This document shows positions 7,092-55,445 of a stretch of DNA of 64,000 nucleotides, in pieces (within the stretch, counting starts at the first letter, position 1; each line of letters begins with the position of its first letter). Origin of the DNA: Thunnus maccoyii. Taxonomy: Eukaryota; Chordata; Actinopteri; Scombriformes; Scombridae. A program made the position numbers and the translations under genes. The stretch lies in the NCBI RefSeq assembly GCF_910596095.1, contig NC_056544.1, positions 7,456,655-7,520,654 on the forward strand, given 5' to 3'. Under the pieces are notes generated by a model. That model made no database searches. It was not told where the DNA came from and saw only the letters and a list, made by a program, of their open reading frames with translations.

Positions 7092-8189
7092 CTACAAAGC
7101 CGTATCTATCTGGGAAGTGTCTGTTAGCTTTTCCTGAAGCTCTTGAAGCTTCATCAGTGGTGTTCTGCAGCAGGCAAATGCTTCCATTGTGTCCTTTATG
7201 TCCCTCCTCATGAAAATATAGATTAAAGAGTCTATCATAGGACTAATGTAGACCAGGGCACTAGTCACAACAAGAGACCAATCCTTGACCAAGTCCTCTG
7301 CATCTGTGTCACCTTTGAGAGAGTAGTAAAGGTTCCTGAAACTGAAGGGGAAGAACAAAACTATATATGTCCCCAATACCAGACCCAGAACCCCCAAAAC
7401 CCTCCTCCTGTTTTTCTTTTCACGTCTCATGGCTATACTCCTGCTGAGGGCTTTCCATGTGGCTGTGAAGAAACCCACAAGAAATGGAGCAGGGAGGAGG
7501 CAGATGATGGAGAATAGCAACAAGGAGACCCTTTTGTTGGTCAAGAAGACATAATCCAGAGAGCTGTAGGCCAGTGAGAGGGTCCACATGCAAACTGAGA
7601 TCAGGATAGAAAACTTTGCATTGTTCTTTGTGTGGTACCACACTGGGAAAGCCACCAATAAATACCTCTCTGCAGAAATCAGCAGCATGAAACCCAAACT
7701 GGAGGTCAGGCCCAAGCGGACGAGCAGTCGTGCGATACAGCGGGCTCTGATGAAAGGCTGATAGGAAGCGTCAAAAAACCTACTTACGATAAAGACAATT
7801 GTGATCCCGATCTGAATTAGGTCTGACAGGAGCAAGTTTATGGCAAAGATCGGAGCTGCTGTTTCCTTCTTGAGTAGACACAGGAGAGCGTAGCCGGCAA
7901 GGCAGACTTCAGGTAATCCTACAAAGAATATGACCCAGTCCACCACAATGCCCATGATGTTTGTGTAGTAGAAAGAATCTTCACAATGGAGAAGTGAAGT
8001 ATTTTGAGGTATCACAGTCATCTTGCTGTTGTTGGCAATCTGTGGAGCATCGACCTTGATGCTTTCAGCTGTGAAGTTATTCTTAGTAAAGTTGTAGTTT
8101 TTGCTGTTCTCTTTTATCAGTGTCCATCCATGGTAAGATAGCGTGACTGAGAGATTATCAGATATTACACTGTCACTTCCTCCAAACAT
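7092..8189 (-). CDS. Orphan class A (rhodopsin-like) G-protein-coupled receptor, 365 aa
   Basis: Seven-helix plasma-membrane receptor, ligand unknown. The N-tail (1-74) has sequons at N12, N33, N38, N53 and N63. TM1 is about 76-105, TM2 112-136, TM3 151-172 ending in ERY (174-176), TM4 193-212 with Trp202, TM5 221-245 with Pro233, TM6 264-288 around FFPF, and TM7 304-327 ending DSLIY in place of NPxxY. A basic loop 3 (255-263) and a CC pair (340-341, possible palmitoylation) follow. ECL2 is only a few residues and has no cysteine to pair with Cys151 at the top of TM3. The short ECL2 and the FPVWY stretch after ERY resemble Mas-related receptors, but I do not assign a subfamily. The whole CDS is one exon; a T-run ending GTCAG just before the ATG is a good acceptor, so a 5' UTR exon probably lies upstream. 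Confidence 0.85.
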   Translation of the reverse strand: MFGGSDSVISDNLSVTLSYHGWTLIKENSKNYNFTKNNFTAESIKVDAPQIANNSKMTVIPQNTSLLHCEDSFYYTNIMGIVVDWVIFFVGLPEVCLAGYALLCLLKKETAAPIFAINLLLSDLIQIGITIVFIVSRFFDASYQPFIRARCIARLLVRLGLTSSLGFMLLISAERYLLVAFPVWYHTKNNAKFSILISVCMWTLSLAYSSLDYVFLTNKRVSLLLFSIICLLPAPFLVGFFTATWKALSRSIAMRREKKNRRRVLGVLGLVLGTYIVLFFPFSFRNLYYSLKGDTDAEDLVKDWSLVVTSALVYISPMIDSLIYIFMRRDIKDTMEAFACCRTPLMKLQELQEKLTDTSQIDTAL

Positions 8190-9392
8190 CCTGACAAAAA
8201 AAAAAAAGTAATAATCTCTAATAATCTCTAATAATCTGTGGGGTCAAATTCACAGGCTCATGTCATAGACTAAAAAGGACTAAATAAAAACACTGAAACA
8301 TTTTATTTTTGTTATATCCATAAGATTATGCTTCCAAGTTAAATATTGGTATCTTTTTCCTTTTTACCACCAGGTATAAACTGATATTGCAAACTTAGAA
8401 GCCACCAAGAAAATGCCACATCAATTTTCATCAATTATTTCCCCAAGCTCTATGCTCTCACCTTTGCCTCTGTGTTTTCTTGCATTATTCCCAACTCTGT
8501 TTCCTGTTAGAGCAGTGTAGTTATACGCTGTCATTCAGTCATGCAGTCTGAAGTTTCAGTAACCTTTCAGCCACCTATTTCATGGAACAGGAATTATGCA
8601 AACCAGGAGTATCTCTCTAGGATAGAGATATTACCATATGAATATGTTGGAAAAGGCACGTCACGACCTATCCCATTGCGATAATATACAAAATAAATTC
8701 AAACAGGTGAGCAGGTGATGGAGACAGACGAGGCAGCAGTTTAAATTGTAACAAGATGTACTCACATCTCAATTAAAAAGGAAAAACTTTTTTTTTCAAT
8801 TTTATTTGCCCAAAGGTTAAACATACACACAGACAGTATATACAATATACACCTGAACAGTTAATGTAACCACATACAGTACATGCTTCCACACACAAAT
8901 ACAGAATAATACATTAAAGCAAGAAAATGCAATAAATGCTTAACTGTAGCTTTACAGTAGCACATGTAAAAAGAGTCAGAAAGTCAGTAATGTCTTTTAA
9001 ACAACAGTATCTATGTAAAGACTAACATTAGCCACAGATAGCTACTGGTCATACCAGAGCAAGTAAGGCAAGAGTTGTATATTGTGTGTTATGTATTTAT
9101 TTTTTCAAACATAATATGGTCTCACATTAAAACATTCATAATAAGGTACATTATAAGATATCATTGTTATAATACAAGCAACAAGTTAACTAGATAACAT
9201 TATATAGTTGTTGTTAGGAATGTGGTCGGATCTTTCCCAGGTAATCTAGAAATGAACCTCAGATTACACTTAAACTTATTTCTTTGTCATATTAGCTAAA
9301 ACATGTTTTTTTTCCCCACAAGTTGCTTTTTGTACTATTACATAAGTCCATATTTAAAAAGAAAGTTATTTACATTTCCATTGCCATCCATT

Positions 9393-11108: not shown

Positions 11109-11735
11109 TTAGCAAAAATCCTCAAACATCTCCCCAGGTGGTGACATTGTCTCTGCCGCAGTTTCCTCTTCCTCCCAGTTGTCTGTCTCACTTGCATTAA
11201 GACAGAGGACGCTGTTCTCCGCCACCTTCCACTTAATCTTTTCCAGAAGTCTTGTGACCTGAGCCGGATCATCTGCCTTTATGTTGAAGCTGTGGTACCT
11301 GTTGTTGCATTTCCTCACCAGCAACTGGAGAGTTCTGCCTCCACTTTCTATGGACTGCTCCACAGTGGTTTCTCCAATGCTGTCACACCAGCTGAAGAGT
11401 ACAAGAGTGTGTCTCCAAACATCCAGAAGGCTCATGTGCTCTCTGATGGACCTCAAGTGGGCCTTGGTGAAAGCAACAGCGGTGGAGACCACCAGGATGA
11501 TGGCATGGGGCCCTGGAGTGCAGAGTGAAACTCCTTTTGTTATCTCCTGCTTCACCTTCTCTGGAGTATCCTTGAGGGAGCTGAACCTTGACCAGCCTGG
11601 AGTGTCTACCAATTGGACCATCCACCGACCCAGTTGGCTTTGTCTCCCCGTCCCAGCAGGACGCCCAGTCTCCCACCCAGGTTTTCCCAGGCAGGAACCA
11701 GCCAGCCAGCAAAAGCCTGATTTTCCGCTAAACAA
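11109..11735 (-). pseudogene. GIMAP/AIG1-type GTPase fragment
   Basis: GTPases of immunity-associated proteins are membrane-linked GTP-binding proteins, expanded in fish. On the minus strand the frame shows a degenerate P-loop (SGKSGF near the 5' end) and a clear G3 motif VDTPGW. The family blocks DTPEKVKQEIT, SLCTPGPHAIILVV, VWRHTLVLFS and NRYHSFNIK follow, as does TRLLEKI. No ATG opens the frame. A TGA lies just upstream of the P-loop, and I found no upstream exon with a start. After MSPPGEMFEDFC the frame stops, but a different frame continues to a GTGAGT donor near 11026. I read this as a truncated, frame-broken copy, though a gene with unusual splicing cannot be excluded. Confidence 0.65.
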
Positions 11736-11819
11736 TAGGCCTACACCTCATCTGACAGTGAGATTAACAGAAAAAGTAGGAACTGGCTCTATTTACTGTC
11801 AAAAGATAAATACATGAAG

Positions 11820-14088: not shown

Positions 14089-17000
14089 ATGGCATCCCTG
14101 GAGGAAGAGCTGACCTGCTCTGTTTGCAGAGATATCTTCAGCCAAGCACCCCCCCTGCCCTGCGGTCATAGCTTCTGCCCTGCCTGCATCCGTGAAGCCT
14201 GGAGCAACCCAGATGAGGGCAAGGGTCACTTTACCTGCCCCCAGTGCCAGGAGGAGCACGGCGAAGTGCTGTGTGACTGCTGCCCTCCCAAGGAAGATGA
14301 AGCATTGGCTCCCTTGGCTGTCAAGACTTGCCTGAGGTGTGAAGTGTCGTTGTGTGCTGAACACCTCCAGCCGCATTTGGAGAGACCAGCGTTTAGCACC
14401 CACTTGCTGGTGGATCCACTGGGGGACCTTTCTCAGCGAAGGTGCCCGACACACACAGAGATATTCCGCTACTACTGTGCCGATGAGAGGGCGTATTTGT
14501 GCGGTGACTGTCTGCTGGACGGAGCCCATGTTCAGCATAAAGTGAAGGCGCTGAGACAGGTGGAAGAGGATCTAAAGGTTAGTTGAAAAAATATGCAGTA
14601 TATATACAGTGTGTTTTTGTGTTTGTTTGAGCTTCAGTGTGGGGTTTCTTAAATATGTGTTTTCTCAGGTCATTCTGCAGACGCTGCTCCAAAAAGCAGA
14701 GGAGAAGCTGAAAGATGGAGAGCGAATCCTCAAAGAGCATGAAAATTTTGATTCCACCATGGCTGTGAGTAAAAATATTTAAACTGTGCAGATGAAATGC
14801 AACATAATGACTCTCAGTAGAAATTGGTCTTTATACGTCATCTGTGCAAGTTATGATCCACAAGGACTCAAAAATGTAAATCTTCAGATTCAGACTGACA
14901 TTCCTATTCAGATTGATCAAATGGTTTGATTATGTCTCACTACAATGATCACCAATCACCAACTCCTGGTTGCAGGACTCTCTGAGGGAGGACAACACCC
15001 AGGTGGAGCGCCTGGGCTCAGACCTGCAGGTCCAGGTGAAGAATCTGGTGGTAGCCCTGAGGGAGATTACTAAGAAGGAGAGACAGCAGGTCACTGAGCG
15101 TGTGTATGAGGACTACTTGAAGGTGAGAGAAGACTTGAGCGAGACGCTGAGCATCCAGCACTACCTGGCCTCACTGCTGGCAGAGACAGACCCCTTCCTG
15201 CTCATCTGGGTAAGACTTTGCTGAACAGAGAATCTGGTGAACATTACCAGTGTCAGATTTGTTGAGAGCTAGGTCACATGAATGAATACAATTTATGTAT
15301 ACAATGCAATGTATACAATGTATACAATTGTATTGCAATTAAATGTGATACAGAATTTCATGATCCCCAGAGGATCCTGATGACTTTCCTCTATTGCCAT
15401 CATCAGGTCAAAATTTTAATTTGCCCAAGACTTTGGTTCATGTCCAAATACCTGCAAAACTGACATTCCCTTCAGTCTCAGCTGTACTTAGTGTTCTTGA
15501 TTAGCAAATGTTAGCGTGCTAACACACTAAACTGGTGAACATGGGAAAGCTAGCTGTAGCATTTAGCTCAAAGCACCTCTGTGCATTAAGCTGCCAGTAT
15601 GCTTCATCAGAACTGCTTGTCTGGCTTCAGTAATCCCCTCTCCTCACACATATCCAACATCAAAATTGGTGGAGGGCTGTGTCTGATTTAATTTTTGTAA
15701 CTTGCCGAAACTGACAATGTGACATTTATGAGCCAGTTGGCCAGCTGTGTCTGGGTAAGAAAGGAGACAAGGATTGAACTTCTCTTTCTTGCTCTCTTTT
15801 GTCCTTGTTAAACAACAATTTCTGTCACTTTTTGTGTGAAAAAATGGGTGCAACACTACAATTACCTTCCAGGAGAAACTGTCTGAAATTGTCTGCCGTT
15901 ATCTCTGTATTGACACAATATCATCTCCCCCCTCTTTATGATGGTCAGCTTTCCTCTCTGCCTTGTGGCCATTTGGAAAAGCTATAAACGCACTTGATCT
16001 CTGACGTGGTCGAACAATACATAGTACAAACTGAGATTGATCAAATTTGATTGAGAGTTGCGAACAACTCACTGTTGCCAGAGTCTCACTCAAAAGTGAA
16101 CATGACATCACCTTTTTTCCAGCTGAGCCCCGCCCACTTCAAACCAGTGAGAAGGGCACAGACAAAAGCACAAATACAGAAATCTCTCAAGTGTAATAAC
16201 CAAACCTGTTCTAACTTTGGCACAAAATTGTGTGCTAATGCAGGACCTAATCACTCATAGTTAGAAGCTGACTGAGAAAATAGGTTTTTAGGGCCTTAAA
16301 ACAGTCTATTATTAAAGCACAAAGCCAAATGATCTTCTCAAAAAGGGGCAAAATGATTTTAGAAATAGCTGTGATAATGTTCTTCATGCATTTTACATTT
16401 TTAATCTTCCATGCTGTTCTTGATATAGAGATGTATAGATTGACTTTCAGTGATAAATCACTGTATACATGACGTGTACTCCTCTTTCCTCAGGCCTTTC
16501 AATCAGATGATACAAAGTAAGTCCAGAACAAGTCAATGAAACTGTGTGAGGTTGTTCTTAGGTGTGCTGATGTGAGGGAGTGTTTCTATGTATGTGGGAT
16601 GAATGTGTTTGTTTGTTTTTTGTTTTTTTTCCTCATTAAAATGAGATCAGTTTCCTATGTGTTGTGTTTTTGTATTGTAGGTTACTAGCAGACCTGAACA
16701 GCCCACTTTACACACCTGATCCCGTCAGTCTGGACAGGAAGCACATCTTGGAGGACATAGAAAGCAAGTATCGAGAGTTCATCACCGCCACCCTCCGCTG
16801 TCTCAGTGACCTCAAGAGGGAGCTCTGTGAGTAGCAGATGGGTGATACATGCCCACACTATTTATTTTACCTTTTTAACATCATCTTTCAAATTTGATCT
16901 GGCCTCACATAATTTAAGAATGATTTTTCTGACATCTGCTGATTTCATGTGGCAAAGAATGGTCTTCTATGTGTGGTAACTAGCACTGTGCAGATGCACG

Positions 17001-18162
17001 GTTGCATTTCAGCAATACGTGGGTGTCAACTGGAAATATTTCTCAAGTTATAAAAAGCAAATAAAGCTGTTGTTATTTTTACAAGAGCTGCATCCTGCTG
17101 TAGGTTCTGCTTTACCCCCCACAAGTAACAACTTTTTTTTTTTTTTTAAATTTTCTCCTTATACAGTAACCAGTCCTTTGACTTTGGACACTAACACGGC
17201 CCATCCTCTTCTGAGCATCTCTGATGACCTGCGCTCAGTTACACGGGTTAAAAACCGCCTGCCTTGTGCTGCTCACCCCGACCGTTTCGACCACTGGCCA
17301 CAAGTCCTCACGGCCCAGACCTTCTCAGCTGGGACTCACTACTGGGAGCTGCAGGCTGAGGGATTCTGGGATATCGGCGTCTCCTACAAAAGTATTGGAC
17401 GGAAGGGGAAAGAAGGCAACGCCTTTGGGAACAACAAGGTATGTGTACCACCCACATGGTTTAGCATTTTTAAGGTGGTGTATGTCACATTGTTTAGAAG
17501 TGATTTGTTGTTTTTGTTACCAGTGAGATGAGTAGAAACCTACAGGTCAGTGTTTAGAGCACATTTACCACCAGGTGTTGCTCTACATGGAAAAGTGATA
17601 AGTTACACTTACACTGCTCAAAAATACTGTAGTTCACTTTAGCTGTTTTTCTGCCCTAAAACAAAGTAATTCCATGTTCTACAGATGCAGCCAAAACTTC
17701 CATAGATTTTTGTCAGTTACACAAATGTTTTGAAATTGACATGGCACTGATATACTGATGTTGAATAGTTACATGTATAGTGTCCTTAAATATGATCAAA
17801 CTGCCAACAGCACCCATCTTTATCTGCCACTGTAGGTTTCAACCAAAAAGAAAACATGTTCCTTGATTAAAATGCTTCTGTTAAATCTCCAGATGTCCTG
17901 GAGTTTGACGCAGCAACATGACAGGAAGCTAGCTGCCTGGCACAACCGCAGGAAGATCCGCCTCACATACCAAATGACCGGCAACCGTGTTGCCGTAGCT
18001 GTGGACTACGGAGCAGGCACCATCACCTTCTCTGAGGTGGGGCCGTCTAACAACTTAACCCACCTCCACACTTTCTCGACCTTGTTCACTCAGCCGGTGT
18101 GCTTGGGCTTTGGACTTTACAAAGCTGAGCTCAACAGCCGTATCTCTATTGTAAAAGTCTGA
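14089..18162 (+). CDS. TRIM E3 ubiquitin ligase (RING, B-box, coiled coil, PRY/SPRY), 509 aa
   Basis: Likely cytosolic E3 ubiquitin ligase. Seven coding exons, all in phase: 14089-14577, 14669-14764 (96 nt), 14976-15209 (234 nt), 16494-16516 (23 nt), 16681-16826, 17167-17438, 17893-18162. The 96-234-23 series is the canonical TRIM coiled-coil exon set. RING ligands are C10, C13, C25, H27, C30, C33, C50 and C53. A CDCC...KTCLRC first B-box and a complete second B-box (CPTH...YC...CGDC...HVQH) follow. Coiled coil is about 164-273 and B30.2 about 331-509, with the LTLD, YWEL, FWDIGVSYKSI and CLGFGLY motifs. B30.2 is split by a phase-0 intron after FGNNK. The link between RING and first B-box is unusually short. 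It resembles TRIM25/TRIM65-like fish proteins, but I give no symbol. An AATAAA lies at 18346-18351. It is paralogous to the TRIM gene at 50860-55177. Confidence 0.9.
16127..16260 (+). repeat. Copy A of the three-copy dispersed repeat
   Basis: GTGAGAAGGGCACAGACAAAA...AGAAATCTCTCAAG...AATAACCAAACCTGTTCTAAC. It lies in intron 3 of the first TRIM gene. Confidence 0.6.
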
Positions 18163-50859: not shown

Positions 50860-53767
50860 TCATGAAGCTTTGATAATAGAGATTCTGCTGGGTGGATCCA
50901 CACGGTAAAGCCCCAAACCCAGGCACAGCGGTTCAGTCAATTCAGCCTTGAACTCGTGCAGCTTTGTGGTGACGGTAGAGCCCACGGCACTGAATGTGAT
51001 GTTGCCTTTCTCAAAGTTAAACATCACCGCTATCCGGTTGCTCTGCAAGGTTGTAGAGAGAGTGTATTTTCTATTGTTGTGGTATGCAAACAGCTTGCCT
51101 TTGCCAGTGTGCGTCAGGCTCCAGGACTCGGGGTTGTTTCCGAAGGCGCTGCTGCCTTTGCTCTTGCGTTTGATGCTCTTGTAGGACACAGCGATGTCCC
51201 AGTATCCCTCAGCCTCCACTTCCCACCTATGGGTACCGGTGGAGAAGCACTGGGTGGAAAGGACCTGTGGGGCTACATCAAAGCGGCTGCTCGTGCTGGG
51301 GAAGCCCCGCTTGGCTTCCACTCTCTCTACTGTCAGGAGGTCAGCGGAGACTCCGAGGAAGGGACTGGCAGTGTCCAGGTCCAGCGTGAGAGTTACTGAG
51401 AGACAGACAGACAGAATTTTAATATAATACAGTAGCTTCATGGAAATTAAAAGGCTAATTAAAGACTAAGAATATGGGCTGCTCCAGTTATTACTGTGGC
51501 ATCTTTGCACTGCCCTTAACTGAGATCATGGTGTTTTTTTGTCCTTGAACTCACCTTACTACCTTTGTTAAACGCTTTTGTCGACAACTGTGTCAGAGAG
51601 GTGGTCTTCTTGAGTATTATATAGGTTCAATTGTGTGCTGTCCTTCATGTTACATATTTTCTGGGCAGCAATGCAATGACTGTGTTCACATGCATGCTAG
51701 TATCCCTGTTCTGATTGGGTATTTGAGTGTTTTTGTAAGTTCTTTCACATCAAAATCAGCAGTTTCCTGATAGAAACTGGGATGTTGTGGGATTGTAAAA
51801 AACCTTATCCAGGTTTCCATGCTCGCAGGAGTTTCCTCAACTCAAGTTATACAGTCAAAAAAAAATGCAAAAAATAAAAACATGATATTGAACAATGTGA
51901 TGGTCAACATGCTGAAAGAAAAGCAAAAGTCAGACAGCCGTGATGCAGATGAGAGATTTTATTATCACTCTTCCATTACTGAAGATAAGATGGGGAAGTG
52001 AAATCTCGAGTGGTAAAAATGCAGCAGAGTCCAGGTAGTCAGAAACCAGACTGAGTTCATCCTCAACTGTTTAGTTAATGCAGTCAGCTCAGAAATGGCA
52101 GATGGGCTGGATGTGGAGGAGTCACTGACAAAAACCTGCACTGATGCAGGTGATCAGATACCTGGATGATATTAGGATCATGTAAACAGGGATGTGAATA
52201 ACCAAGTTTCTCTTTGTTCTGTGGTGACATCATATTTTGAATAAGATCAAAACTAGAGGAGTGTTTCATAAAGCAAGATTACCAGTTGAACCAGGCTTAT
52301 TTTTAGGAACTTCAGTTATAAAGGATCTCAGTGGACTTGAGTTTATCTCTATTTGCGTCAGTCTGAGCTTACTGTTGGCTAAAAGTTGACTTGCTGTTTA
52401 TTGCAGTGGTTTTGTTCATTTTTTCCATGGCTGAAAACATCGGTGTTGTCCTTACATGTCAGATTTTTCCACTGTGAATTGATGTGATCTCACGTCTGTG
52501 TTTCTAAGTCATCAAAAAAAAAAACAACAACAAAAAAACACCCATGCTTGATCCTATTAGCTCCGAGTTCCCTTTAACAAGCAGCTTAGATGTGGTTCAG
52601 TTTGTTAGGCTCATTCAAGACAGGCTTGCCAGAATAAGCCCGGCTTTTCTGAGCCACCTTTATGAAACACCTCTCAGGATAAGACTTGAGCCAGGACACT
52701 AGTGTGTATCTAAACATAGTAATAGTTTGCTTATCTGTCTTTATTGTGATACCTTCATCTTCTGTCTCTACTGGATTGAGGCTCTTCATTGGATGATCAA
52801 CCAAGAGTTCTACATAGAAAAAAAAAAAAGAAAAAGATTATTTGAAGAAATGTCATCGGAATAAACTGAATGATTCTTGAAAAAGCCTCCACATGCTCCC
52901 TCACAACTCTTATTTAATACTAGTAAAAAAAGTTGACAGCTCTTGTTTATGGTGTGTGTTTTACTCATTTCGGCTCAGCACCAAGAATAGAGATTGAAAT
53001 TCTTGCACTATGTACTACCAGCAGGCTATTAACAGTCACATAAACACCAGCAAACATCCTGCTACATGTTGTAATGTGGAATGAATTCATTGTCCATTGT
53101 GGTGTGATGTGCTAAACACAATGAATATAGATTGTGAGCTAAAATATGTCGGTATACCATCTAACTCTGCTCTGCAAATGTTGCTGAATTCTCTGTTTTT
53201 GATCTCATCAGCGGGCAGCAGTGGGGTCTTGAGGTCCGCTTTCTTACCTGCTATGGTAGAATAGATGTGATGCATACGGCTCTGCTGCTTGTTCAACGCT
53301 TCTGTTAGCGTCTGGTTTTCCACAGAGTAGTTGTAGGCTAGTAAAAGGAAAGACAGCTTACTAGGGTTTGATCATGGATATTTGTCAGAGAGCTAATTAA
53401 AGATAGCAGAAATGAATCTTTTACCATAATACAGAACGATAAACCACAGACAGAGCAGCACCACTGTGACGCTGTTGAGGGTCGAGTCGACTGGGTTCAC
53501 TTTCTGCTTCTGACAGGAGAAAAATATATATTAGATCTGAAAAGTGTTAAAAACAAACTAAATCTTCAAAATTACATATTTGAGTGATTAGATAAAGTGT
53601 ATGTATGTAAATCAAATGTAGGTTTATTAATTATTTTATTATGCTAATGAGAATTTAGGGCTCACTTCTTGTTGGATTTCTTTTTGCAGTTTTTTGACAG
53701 AGTCTGTGGATTCCGTAAGTTGCTCCTTGAGCGTGTTAAAGTGCTCGTCCATGTACTTCTGTTGAAT

Positions 53768-53810
<43 letters not shown>

Positions 53811-55177
53811 AGTACCATTAAATACCCTGAAAACCTGGTTCCCAATCATACATATTTCATATAACTAAACATTTAAGTAAGCAACAATTAAAGTTAAAGT
53901 TTAAAAAATATATATCATTTGCTCTTACTTATGAGTTTATCACTGAAAAAAAGCTAATCTGCTTCATCAGGACTATGTGAGATGATTAGATTTGACTGAC
54001 AAACCACCAACTTTACTCAGATTGTGCTTCAAATGTTGCTAAATCCAGACTAACATCTGCTTTGTCCAACAAAGCTTCACTCACTTCGAACTAGTAAGAA
54101 GAGCACAGATAAAACAAGAAATAAAAACCTCTCATGTGAAATAATCCAAACTGTTCTTACTTTGTGTTTATGTAAAACCCTGTTGGTTAGTTTTTTCGTG
54201 GTCTTTAAGGAGTTAATGAATGAAGTGGTGTGGGGACGGCAGGTGAGAGTCAGTCTCAGATTCTCAGGGACCAGAAAATCCTGTTTCTCCAAAGCAACAG
54301 AGCTACAGACAGGCGTGTGGGTAATCCCTCTCCGTTTACAAGAAACTGCTGCTGCCACTTCCTTTTCTTGTGAATCCACCCTGATTTTTTATTGATATGA
54401 TGTCCTGAAAATGCCACAGTTATTCCAGTTTGAAGAGGGTGATATATATTGTCATAAAAGAACTCTACACTCACAGTCAGTTGTCTCCGCAGGGCAGTGG
54501 AGGTCTCAGTAGCCAGGTTGAGCTGCTTGCTCTCCAGGGCGCACATGTTGCAGATGTAGCGTCTGGACATGTTGCAGTAATACCTGAGCACCTCGTCCTC
54601 ATGCTGCGGGCATTTCCTCTCCTGGAGGTCACCCAGGGGTGTGACCAGGGGGTGTCCCGTGAACACCGGCAGCCTCAGGTGGTCCTTGACGTGCTCTTCG
54701 CACAGCGACAACTCACACTTGAGACAAGTTTTCATAGCCAGTGTTGTTTTCTCTGGGCAGCAGTCACAGTACACATTTTTTGTGTGCTCTTCCTGCTCAT
54801 AAAAATCAGACATTTAAGATGTGGGAAAATGTATGTTAGACACGTGTTCACTTTTAAGGATTAGCTTTAAGATTCCTAAGCATCTTTTAAGTGTGATGAT
54901 TGTAGTAAGATGTAAGTACCCTCCTCCTCCTGTTCAGCCTGAAGTCCTCAGCGATGCTGGCCAGTGCGTAGCTCTTCTGTACCCCTACGACCTGTCCAAA
55001 ATATCCCCTGCAGTCGGGGCATCGGAAGGGAAGGTCTGAGGTGTGACCCACCATGCCCTCCAGACAGTCCATACACAGGCTGTGTCCACATGGCAGCTGC
55101 CGAGGATCCTTGAAGATGTCCTGACACACTGGACATGTCAGCATTTCCTCAAAGTGGGTTTTCTCTGTATTTGCCAT
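50860..55177 (-). CDS. Membrane-anchored TRIM protein: RING, B-box, TM segment, B30.2; about 478 aa
   Basis: Probable E3 ubiquitin ligase with a membrane anchor. Minus-strand coding exons, all in phase: 55177-54920, 54792-54475, 53758-53666, 53509-53425, 53337-53248, 52809-52753, 51395-50860. The start is the ATG of MANTEKTHF, well placed after AAAA. RING ligands are C15, C18, C30, H32, C35, C38, C53 and C56. The B-box exon (87-192) holds CDCC...KTCLKC...LCEEH and CPQH...YC...CNMC, but the last His pair of the second box is missing. Residues 193-223 form a short helix. Exon 4 (224-251) encodes a basic KQKVN then a hydrophobic segment (about 236-253). Sequons N254-Y-S and N259-Q-T follow. B30.2 is 301-478, with WEVEAEGYWDIAVSYKSI, AFGNN and CLGLGLY. 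The usual 234-nt coiled-coil exon is absent. Its B30.2 is clearly related to that of the TRIM at 14089-18162. Exon choices in the middle are by eye. Confidence 0.8.
51679..52187. mobile_element. Probable non-autonomous DNA transposon in TRIM intron 6
   Basis: The left end TGTGTTCACATGCATGCTAG and the right end GATCATGTAAACAGGGATG form a weak inverted pair (TGTTYACATG...CTARTATC). A TACCTGGATGATATTAGGATC block is typical of fish repeats with ends of this type. Boundaries approximate. Confidence 0.4.
52257..52675. mobile_element. Non-autonomous DNA transposon with GTGTTTCATAAAG inverted ends
   Basis: The left end GAGTGTTTCATAAAGCAAG is inverted at the right end (TTTATGAAACACCTCTC). Inner AACCAGGCTTATT and AATAAGCCCGGCTT also pair. 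Located in the last intron of the second TRIM gene, no ORF. Confidence 0.6.
53769..53808. repeat. (CA)n microsatellite next to a TRIM splice acceptor
   Basis: 20 CA units. On the minus strand it is a (TG)20 tract ending ten bases before the AG of TRIM exon 3. Confidence 0.97.
54068..54200 (+). repeat. Copy C of a three-copy dispersed repeat
   Basis: Shares AGTRAGAAGRGCACAGAYAAAA, an AAA-rich spacer, CTCTCATGTGAAATAA and CCAAACTGTTCTTACTTTG with copies at about 16127-16260 and 50175-50300. It lies in intron 2 of the second TRIM gene. Confidence 0.6.
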
Positions 55178-55359: not shown

Positions 55360-55445
55360 ATACCTTGAAAGCTAAAGTTGGGGAAAGCCCTCAGTATTGT
55401 CTGTCGTCTGTCTTCCATGCACCCAGCTCAAAGTGAAAGCACTGC
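55360..55445 (-). other. Possible 5' UTR exon of the second TRIM gene
   Basis: On the minus strand CTTTCAAG is followed by a GTATGAAATG donor at about 55364. An AAAAG acceptor lies shortly before the ATG at 55177. Weak evidence. Confidence 0.3.

Follow-up and report, generated by a model that had tools for sequence, protein, structure and literature searches.

TRIM ubiquitin ligases (E3s) are mainly cytosolic or nuclear proteins. The closest described departure from the soluble design in architecture is zebrafish btr31, a bloodthirsty/trim39-like gene supported by expressed sequence tags, in which a RING, a transmembrane (TM) segment and a B30.2 domain follow one another; the stretch that codes for its TM took the place of exons 3 and 4, and the gene adjoins a normal relative, btr32 (Boudinot et al. 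2011, PMC3137616). This was the only report of a RING-TM-B30.2 TRIM found in our literature search, which had mostly open-access coverage; other reports may exist. In the accessible text of TRIM papers on duck (PMC10445537), TRIM origin (PMC3503706), carp (PMC10048487) and grass carp (PMC8698530), no TM between RING and B30.2 is mentioned, and the two carp surveys place the TM domains of some TRIMs at the C-terminus. Here we analyse a gene, hereafter TM TRIM, located on the minus strand at 55177-50860 of a 64,000-nucleotide (nt) stretch of Thunnus maccoyii DNA (the window; contig NC_056544.1, positions 7,456,655 to 7,520,654 of the forward strand). It encodes RING, B-boxes, a predicted TM segment and B30.2 in this order. 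We regard it as probable that TM TRIM is a TRIM25-like class IV gene turned into a single-pass type II membrane E3 with client capture by a non-cytosolic B30.2.

A sequence-only reading of this window had taken both the RING-TM-B30.2 order and the receptor-like E3 design for undescribed. Because btr31 is already in print, the architecture is not the first of its kind, and PA-TM-RING E3s such as RNF13 and GRAIL (RNF128) work alike, with an outward or luminal binding domain, one TM and a RING, the PA domain of GRAIL facilitating recognition (PMC4021871). TM TRIM looks like another version of this rarely reported design, one whose cytosolic part differs and is more complete. As in btr31, a membrane would separate RING from B30.2, the TM being predicted here; btr31 lost the B-boxes and the coiled coil and is of btr/trim39 descent, whereas TM TRIM has B-box1, part of B-box2 and heptads flanking the TM on either side. 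TRIM25 is its best match among solved structures (4cfg, E 6.7e-38) and also has the nearest solved N-terminus. The two genes apparently differ in ancestry, btr31 being known here by description only. The PA-TM-RING E3s are not homologous to TM TRIM: most have a signal peptide, their PA domain is N-terminal and their RING is of the RING-H2 type, whereas the order in TM TRIM is reversed and a Pfam scan at E up to 0.001 found no PA domain in it. TRIM13 and TRIM59 resemble TM TRIM in joining a TRIM N-terminus to a hydrophobic region, but the accessible text of PMC4021871 gives them no domain besides hydrophobic regions, whereas a B30.2 follows the TM here. Butyrophilins likewise link a B30.2 to one TM; in contrast to the topology proposed below, BTN3A3 has immunoglobulin domains outside and its B30.2 inside (PMC9736575). 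TRIM25 and other class IV TRIMs share the RING, the B30.2 and, with B-box2 incomplete here, the two B-box stretches, but TM TRIM differs from them in its mid-protein TM and in the absence of the long antiparallel coiled-coil exon.

TM TRIM comprises seven exons of 258, 318, 93, 85, 90, 57 and 536 nt, with GT..AG at all six introns and entry phases of 0, 0, 0, 1, 1 and 1 for exons 2 to 7, which splice into an intact open reading frame (ORF) of 478 amino acids (aa). The exon lengths and coordinates of the sequence-only reading were right. The models of TM TRIM and of its paralogue in the window were both rebuilt by splicing genomic DNA, and the gene is presumably spliced in this way in the cell. 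The features are as follows.

54920-55177, minus strand: exon 1, ATG and RING finger (approximately residues 10-57), aa 1-86 (spliced ORF, Pfam RING 15-56, TRIM25 alignment)
54475-54792, minus strand: exon 2, B-box1 and B-box2, aa 87-192; B-box2 without its last two zinc-ligand His (ORF, Pfam, alignments)
53666-53758, minus strand: exon 3 (93 nt), short coiled-coil heptads, aa 193-223 (ORF, heptad test)
53425-53509, minus strand: exon 4 (85 nt), two Lys, then the predicted TM segment; sole phase 0 to 1 exon (ORF, hydrophobicity, frame tests)
53426-53470, minus strand: predicted TM helix core, residues 237-251; best-scoring segment 233-253 (hydrophobicity scoring)
53248-53337, minus strand: exon 5 (90 nt), juxtamembrane N254/N259 sequons and second, weaker heptads, aa 252-282 (ORF, heptad test)
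52753-52809, minus strand: exon 6 (57 nt), linker, aa 282-301; phase 1-1, in-frame skipping possible (ORF, exon combinations)
50860-51395, minus strand: exon 7 (536 nt), PRY/SPRY (B30.2), aa 301-478, stop (ORF, Pfam)
51001-51003, minus strand: N432 codon of the GNITF sequon, the only membrane-distant sequon on the B30.2 side (sequence)
55364-55424, minus strand: putative exon of the 5' untranslated region (UTR); donor after 55364, acceptor before 55192 (read by eye, inferred)
14089-18162, plus strand: paralogue, an ordinary RING/B-box/coiled-coil (RBCC)-B30.2 TRIM of seven coding exons and 509 aa (spliced ORF, Pfam, helix score, tree)

No exon of the model other than exon 4 turns phase 0, in which exons 1-3 end, into phase 1, in which B30.2 is entered. 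When exons 3-6 were kept or dropped in 16 combinations, the eight with exon 4 all stayed open as far as the stop codon of B30.2, whereas the eight without it all stopped at residues 193-234, with B30.2 lost. This supports that the exon coding for the TM, which lies between those for the B-boxes and B30.2, is indispensable to the reading frame of the model. Since skipping exon 4 breaks the frame, it would give a truncated RING protein and not a soluble B30.2 TRIM, unless an unseen exon is used; the exon-4 skip that the sequence-only reading named as its refuting case would thus have this outcome.

Residues 233-253, mostly encoded by the 85-nt exon, score -1.92 as a membrane helix on the Hessa scale (parameters entered by hand), which agrees with the TM segment expected by the sequence-only reading. 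The strongest segment of a rhodopsin-type receptor in the window (7095-8243, minus strand; best solved match PAR2, 7e-11) scores -1.93, and its six next segments, assumed to be its other helices, range from -0.91 to +2.27. The best helix score of the paralogue is +2.72, which is not TM-grade, and those of 14 full TRIM ORFs from the same genome lie between +2.15 and +3.81. The latter stem from 15 SPRY/TRIM loci (L001-L008, L012-L018; L002 lacked a full ORF), which are the top-scoring matches of two genome searches, not a random sample, and are nearly all single-exon genes. Composition shuffles of the TM TRIM protein reached the helix score of -1.9 in 6 of 1,500 cases; the hydrophobicity by itself is only moderately unusual, and stronger evidence comes from how the segment differs from the paralogue and from the 14 genomic TRIMs. 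Moreover, of the reading frames of the 85-nt exon, just the one demanded by the splice phase gives a hydrophobic peptide. The segment is flanked by heptads: before it, at residues 195-222, none of 2,000 shuffles was as good, and after it, at residues 260-287, the pattern is weaker (34 of 2,000 shuffles as good with a 28-residue window, 70 of 2,000 with a 21-residue window), both tests using a simple scheme devised for this analysis. Compared with solved structures, aa 194-300 match best to a coiled coil, at an E value of 0.057 that is not solid.

Both ends of the protein are intact. The RING has the C3HC4 pattern and matches zf-RING_UBOX, zf-C3HC4_4 and zf-C3HC4 above the Pfam cut-off; its cysteines and histidines and those of B-box1 are in line with the paralogue, those of B-box1 also with Midline-1. 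Since R57 aligns with R54 of TRIM25, the named linchpin of that protein (PMC4864278), the RING looks able to work. In the paralogue (14089-14577), the last RING cysteine is followed by Q (CPQCQ) at the position of the linchpin R of TRIM25, and its catalytic state may therefore differ. The Pfam match of B-box2 in TM TRIM, at 24.6 bits against a cut-off of 24.1, breaks off at position 31 of a 42-position profile. The two final zinc-ligand histidines of this domain are missing; the paralogue and all 14 other TRIMs compared keep them. At the C-terminus, PRY (1.7e-11) and SPRY (1.7e-7) are both recognised by Pfam, as in class IV TRIMs.

TM TRIM and the paralogue are identical at 93 of 177 aligned positions in B30.2 and at 74 of 156 in the RING/B-box part, and they pair together among 16 TRIMs (FastTree support 1.0, unrooted). 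The exon lengths of the paralogue are 489, 96, 234, 23, 146, 272 and 270 nt, including the 96-234-23 coiled-coil series that the sequence-only reading had described; in zebrafish fintrims the series is reported as a first exon of 555-594 nt followed by 96, 234, 154, 60 and approximately 545 nt (PMC2657112). The 93-nt exon of TM TRIM is kept in register with the paralogue series and the 234-nt exon is absent, so that the 96 + 234 coiled-coil pair of class IV is not found. The earlier view of a TM exon in place of the coiled-coil exon stands in so far as the 234-nt exon is gone and a TM exon is there; it was not a one-for-one swap, because the TM exon holds the phase 0 to 1 slot that belongs to the exons downstream of the 234-nt one. 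The series 93-[none]-85-90-57-536 would fit the loss of the 234-nt exon together with a new or altered exon in the next phase slot. In line with this, tblastn with the coiled-coil exons of the paralogue found no match in 50860-55177 at E up to 10, a search that would miss a coiled-coil exon of unrelated sequence. TM TRIM has an intron between RING and B-boxes. The B30.2 of the paralogue (17439-17892) is split by an intron after AFGNNK, where TM TRIM has none, and the fintrim paper describes B30.2 as encoded by one exon (PMC2657112).

With regard to topology, TM TRIM shows no hydrophobic N-terminus or visible signal peptide, and no N-terminal segment is among its four most hydrophobic. A signal anchor that follows a long N-terminus without a signal peptide favours an N-inside, C-outside orientation. 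Because TM TRIM has a single TM, no signal peptide and a 232-residue, largely zinc-binding N-terminus, the RING would be cytosolic and B30.2 luminal or extracellular, provided that the helix inserts. The receptor-like topology of the sequence-only reading is a fair inference on these grounds; its sequon argument fails. The sequons themselves (N254, N259 and GN432ITF, where the paralogue has GTITF) are present, but the protein's total of four compares with a shuffle mean of 3.1 (at least four in 1,914 of 5,000 shuffles) and the three beyond the TM with 2.2 (as many or more in 1,871 of 5,000). N254 and N259 sit 1-8 residues from the helix, and glycosylation is affected under 12-14 residues from the membrane (PMC11915841, citing Nilsson and von Heijne 1993). 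N160 falls in B-box2, on the supposed cytosolic side, and each of the 14 genomic TRIM ORFs, which have no TM, contains between 1 and 5 sequons. We thus reject the sequons as evidence for a luminal B30.2; from its position, N432 is the only one that could be used.

We propose the following hypothetical scenario, in which (i) a TRIM25-like class IV gene would have lost its long antiparallel coiled-coil exon and gained a signal-anchor exon, or had a neighbouring exon converted into one; (ii) the product would have its RING and B-box1, together with a degenerate B-box2, on the cytosolic side, followed by coiled coil, TM and coiled coil, and would place B30.2 in the lumen of the endoplasmic reticulum (ER) or of endosomes, or outside the cell; (iii) B30.2 would capture a membrane or secretory client, such as a host receptor or a viral glycoprotein, on the non-cytosolic side; (iv) the RING would ubiquitinate the cytosolic tail of the client, or itself, for ER-associated degradation or lysosomal disposal. 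By analogy, client capture by B30.2 coupled to ubiquitination of the cytosolic tail is the most likely function. Solved TRIM coils are antiparallel and hold their RINGs at opposite ends (PMC4864278). An oligomer of TM TRIM would have to be parallel, because the chain crosses the membrane, and would place the RINGs side by side with no need for an antiparallel rod or for assembly through B-box2. With the RINGs close to each other in such an oligomer, clustering by an outside ligand could therefore switch on the RINGs inside. Only tentatively do we extend the proposal to a second, independent fish origin of RING, TM and B30.2 in one chain, TRIM25-like in descent, in which a type II receptor E3 would bind ligand through an extracellular or luminal B30.2 and cluster its cytosolic RINGs through a parallel coiled-coil/TM/coiled-coil stalk that takes over from the antiparallel rod. 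If the design arose twice, in btr31 and in TM TRIM, through loss of the same middle exons, this would argue for selection. If our reading is correct, a membrane TRIM with its recognition domain on the far side would extend the reach of the B30.2 module to ligands that are secretory or extracellular, and TM TRIM would offer a way to test if RING activation in TRIMs depends on the antiparallel rod or just on two RINGs being close to each other.

Several results weigh against this proposal. An insertion score of 0 or less is reached by 77 of 1,500 shuffles, and 171 of 5,000 match the 19-residue Kyte-Doolittle maximum of the protein; the parameters of the Hessa scale and the heptad weights were entered by hand or devised for the purpose; and a single-sequence AlphaFold model was unusable, with a mean predicted local distance difference test (pLDDT) score of 36.9. 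The lost B-box2 ligands and the third-position guanine-cytosine (GC) content of exon 6 (0.37, as compared with 0.55-0.74 in exons 1-5 and 7) are compatible with relaxed constraint. Together with the shuffles that match the hydropathy peak, these features would suit a decaying or lineage-private paralogue of little or no function, which lost its coiled coil and its B-box2 ligands and whose frame stays open through an exon that is hydrophobic by chance. The same explanation gains from a whole-protein search of the 782-Mb (megabase) assembly (54 contigs), in which the next matches stood at approximately 31% and no close second copy was listed, with 89 of 902 candidates scored (150 of 666 in a second search, with the SPRY family). 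The absence of a close copy is not established by this search, since the paralogue, which tblastn matches clearly, is missing from its list. Against a decaying gene stand seven open exons, splice sites that are all GT..AG, a complete B30.2, heptads before as well as after the TM, and RING and B-box1 ligands that line up with those of the paralogue; we consider it unlikely, although it is the strongest of the alternatives.

The charge bias across the TM is also weak. The 25 residues before the core contain 5 K/R and 3 D/E, those after it 2 and 2; for 15 residues the counts are 2 and 2 before and 0 and 2 after. The basic stretch that the sequence-only reading saw before the helix is thus present but modest. 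This bias, and a membrane insertion that is predicted only, would leave room for a hydrophobic helix packed inside a soluble helical bundle, with B30.2 staying in the cytosol. That the insertion score equals the best segment of the window's receptor, and that exon-4 skipping cannot yield a soluble B30.2 form in any of the eight combinations, make this reading slightly less likely still than decay. The small charge difference could even be read in the opposite direction, with B30.2 in the cytosol, as in BTN3A3 (PMC9736575), and the RING and B-boxes in the lumen, that is, a butyrophilin-like B30.2 protein with an idle RING. Without a hydrophobic N-terminus, such an orientation would need translocation of a 232-residue N-terminus with zinc fingers, and the slight excess of K/R on the N side and the kept linchpin position of the RING speak against it as well, so that we find it the least credible of all. 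Scarcely more probable is an error of the gene model, in which the real transcript would use another exon set with a cryptic coiled-coil exon. The exon set was read from DNA, and exon 3 has an acceptor that comes after a (TG)n run and has a weak polypyrimidine tract; the lack of a tblastn match to the paralogue's coiled-coil exons points the other way, within the limit given above for unrelated exons. We therefore retain the type II membrane E3 as the preferred reading of TM TRIM.

Near the putative 5' UTR exon, whose start is merely estimated from TATAAA at 55455-55450, the stretch 55477-55415 contains a GC box, GGAAGT, TATAAA and an interferon-stimulated response element (ISRE)-like TTTCACTTTG; an upstream ATG is out of frame by hand count. 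The ISRE-like match to TTTCNNTTTS lies at 55438-55429, beside the TATA box. We give this candidate interferon-response element no weight, because the motif is common in the window (26 occurrences, 9.8 expected by chance) and sits between the TATA box and the expected start site. In flounder cells, TRIM107 and TRIM110 were raised more than 2-fold after infection with viral haemorrhagic septicaemia virus (PMC7521715), and trim103-110 are named in PMC3137616; TM TRIM may already bear one of these names.

No relative of TM TRIM was found in viral or prokaryotic contig collections, which is uninformative for fishes, and an Rfam scan of the window gave no match at the gathering threshold. Elsewhere in the assembly (G000), contigs C2 (1.8-3.5 Mb), C5, C12 (27-32 Mb), C16 and C17 carry large arrays of RBCC-B30.2 TRIM genes, which are single ORFs of approximately 550-600 aa, apparently intronless, with a RING in 14 of the 15 loci fetched. 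In the window, an AIG1/GIMAP-like GTPase exon lies at 11112-11747 on the minus strand. The two TRIM genes are separated by a stretch (25205-46452) with a chd-type helicase gene (SNF2, HTH_CHD6-9 and BRK matches) and an HMG-box gene whose closest solved structure is TOX, which we take to be chd8 and tox4.

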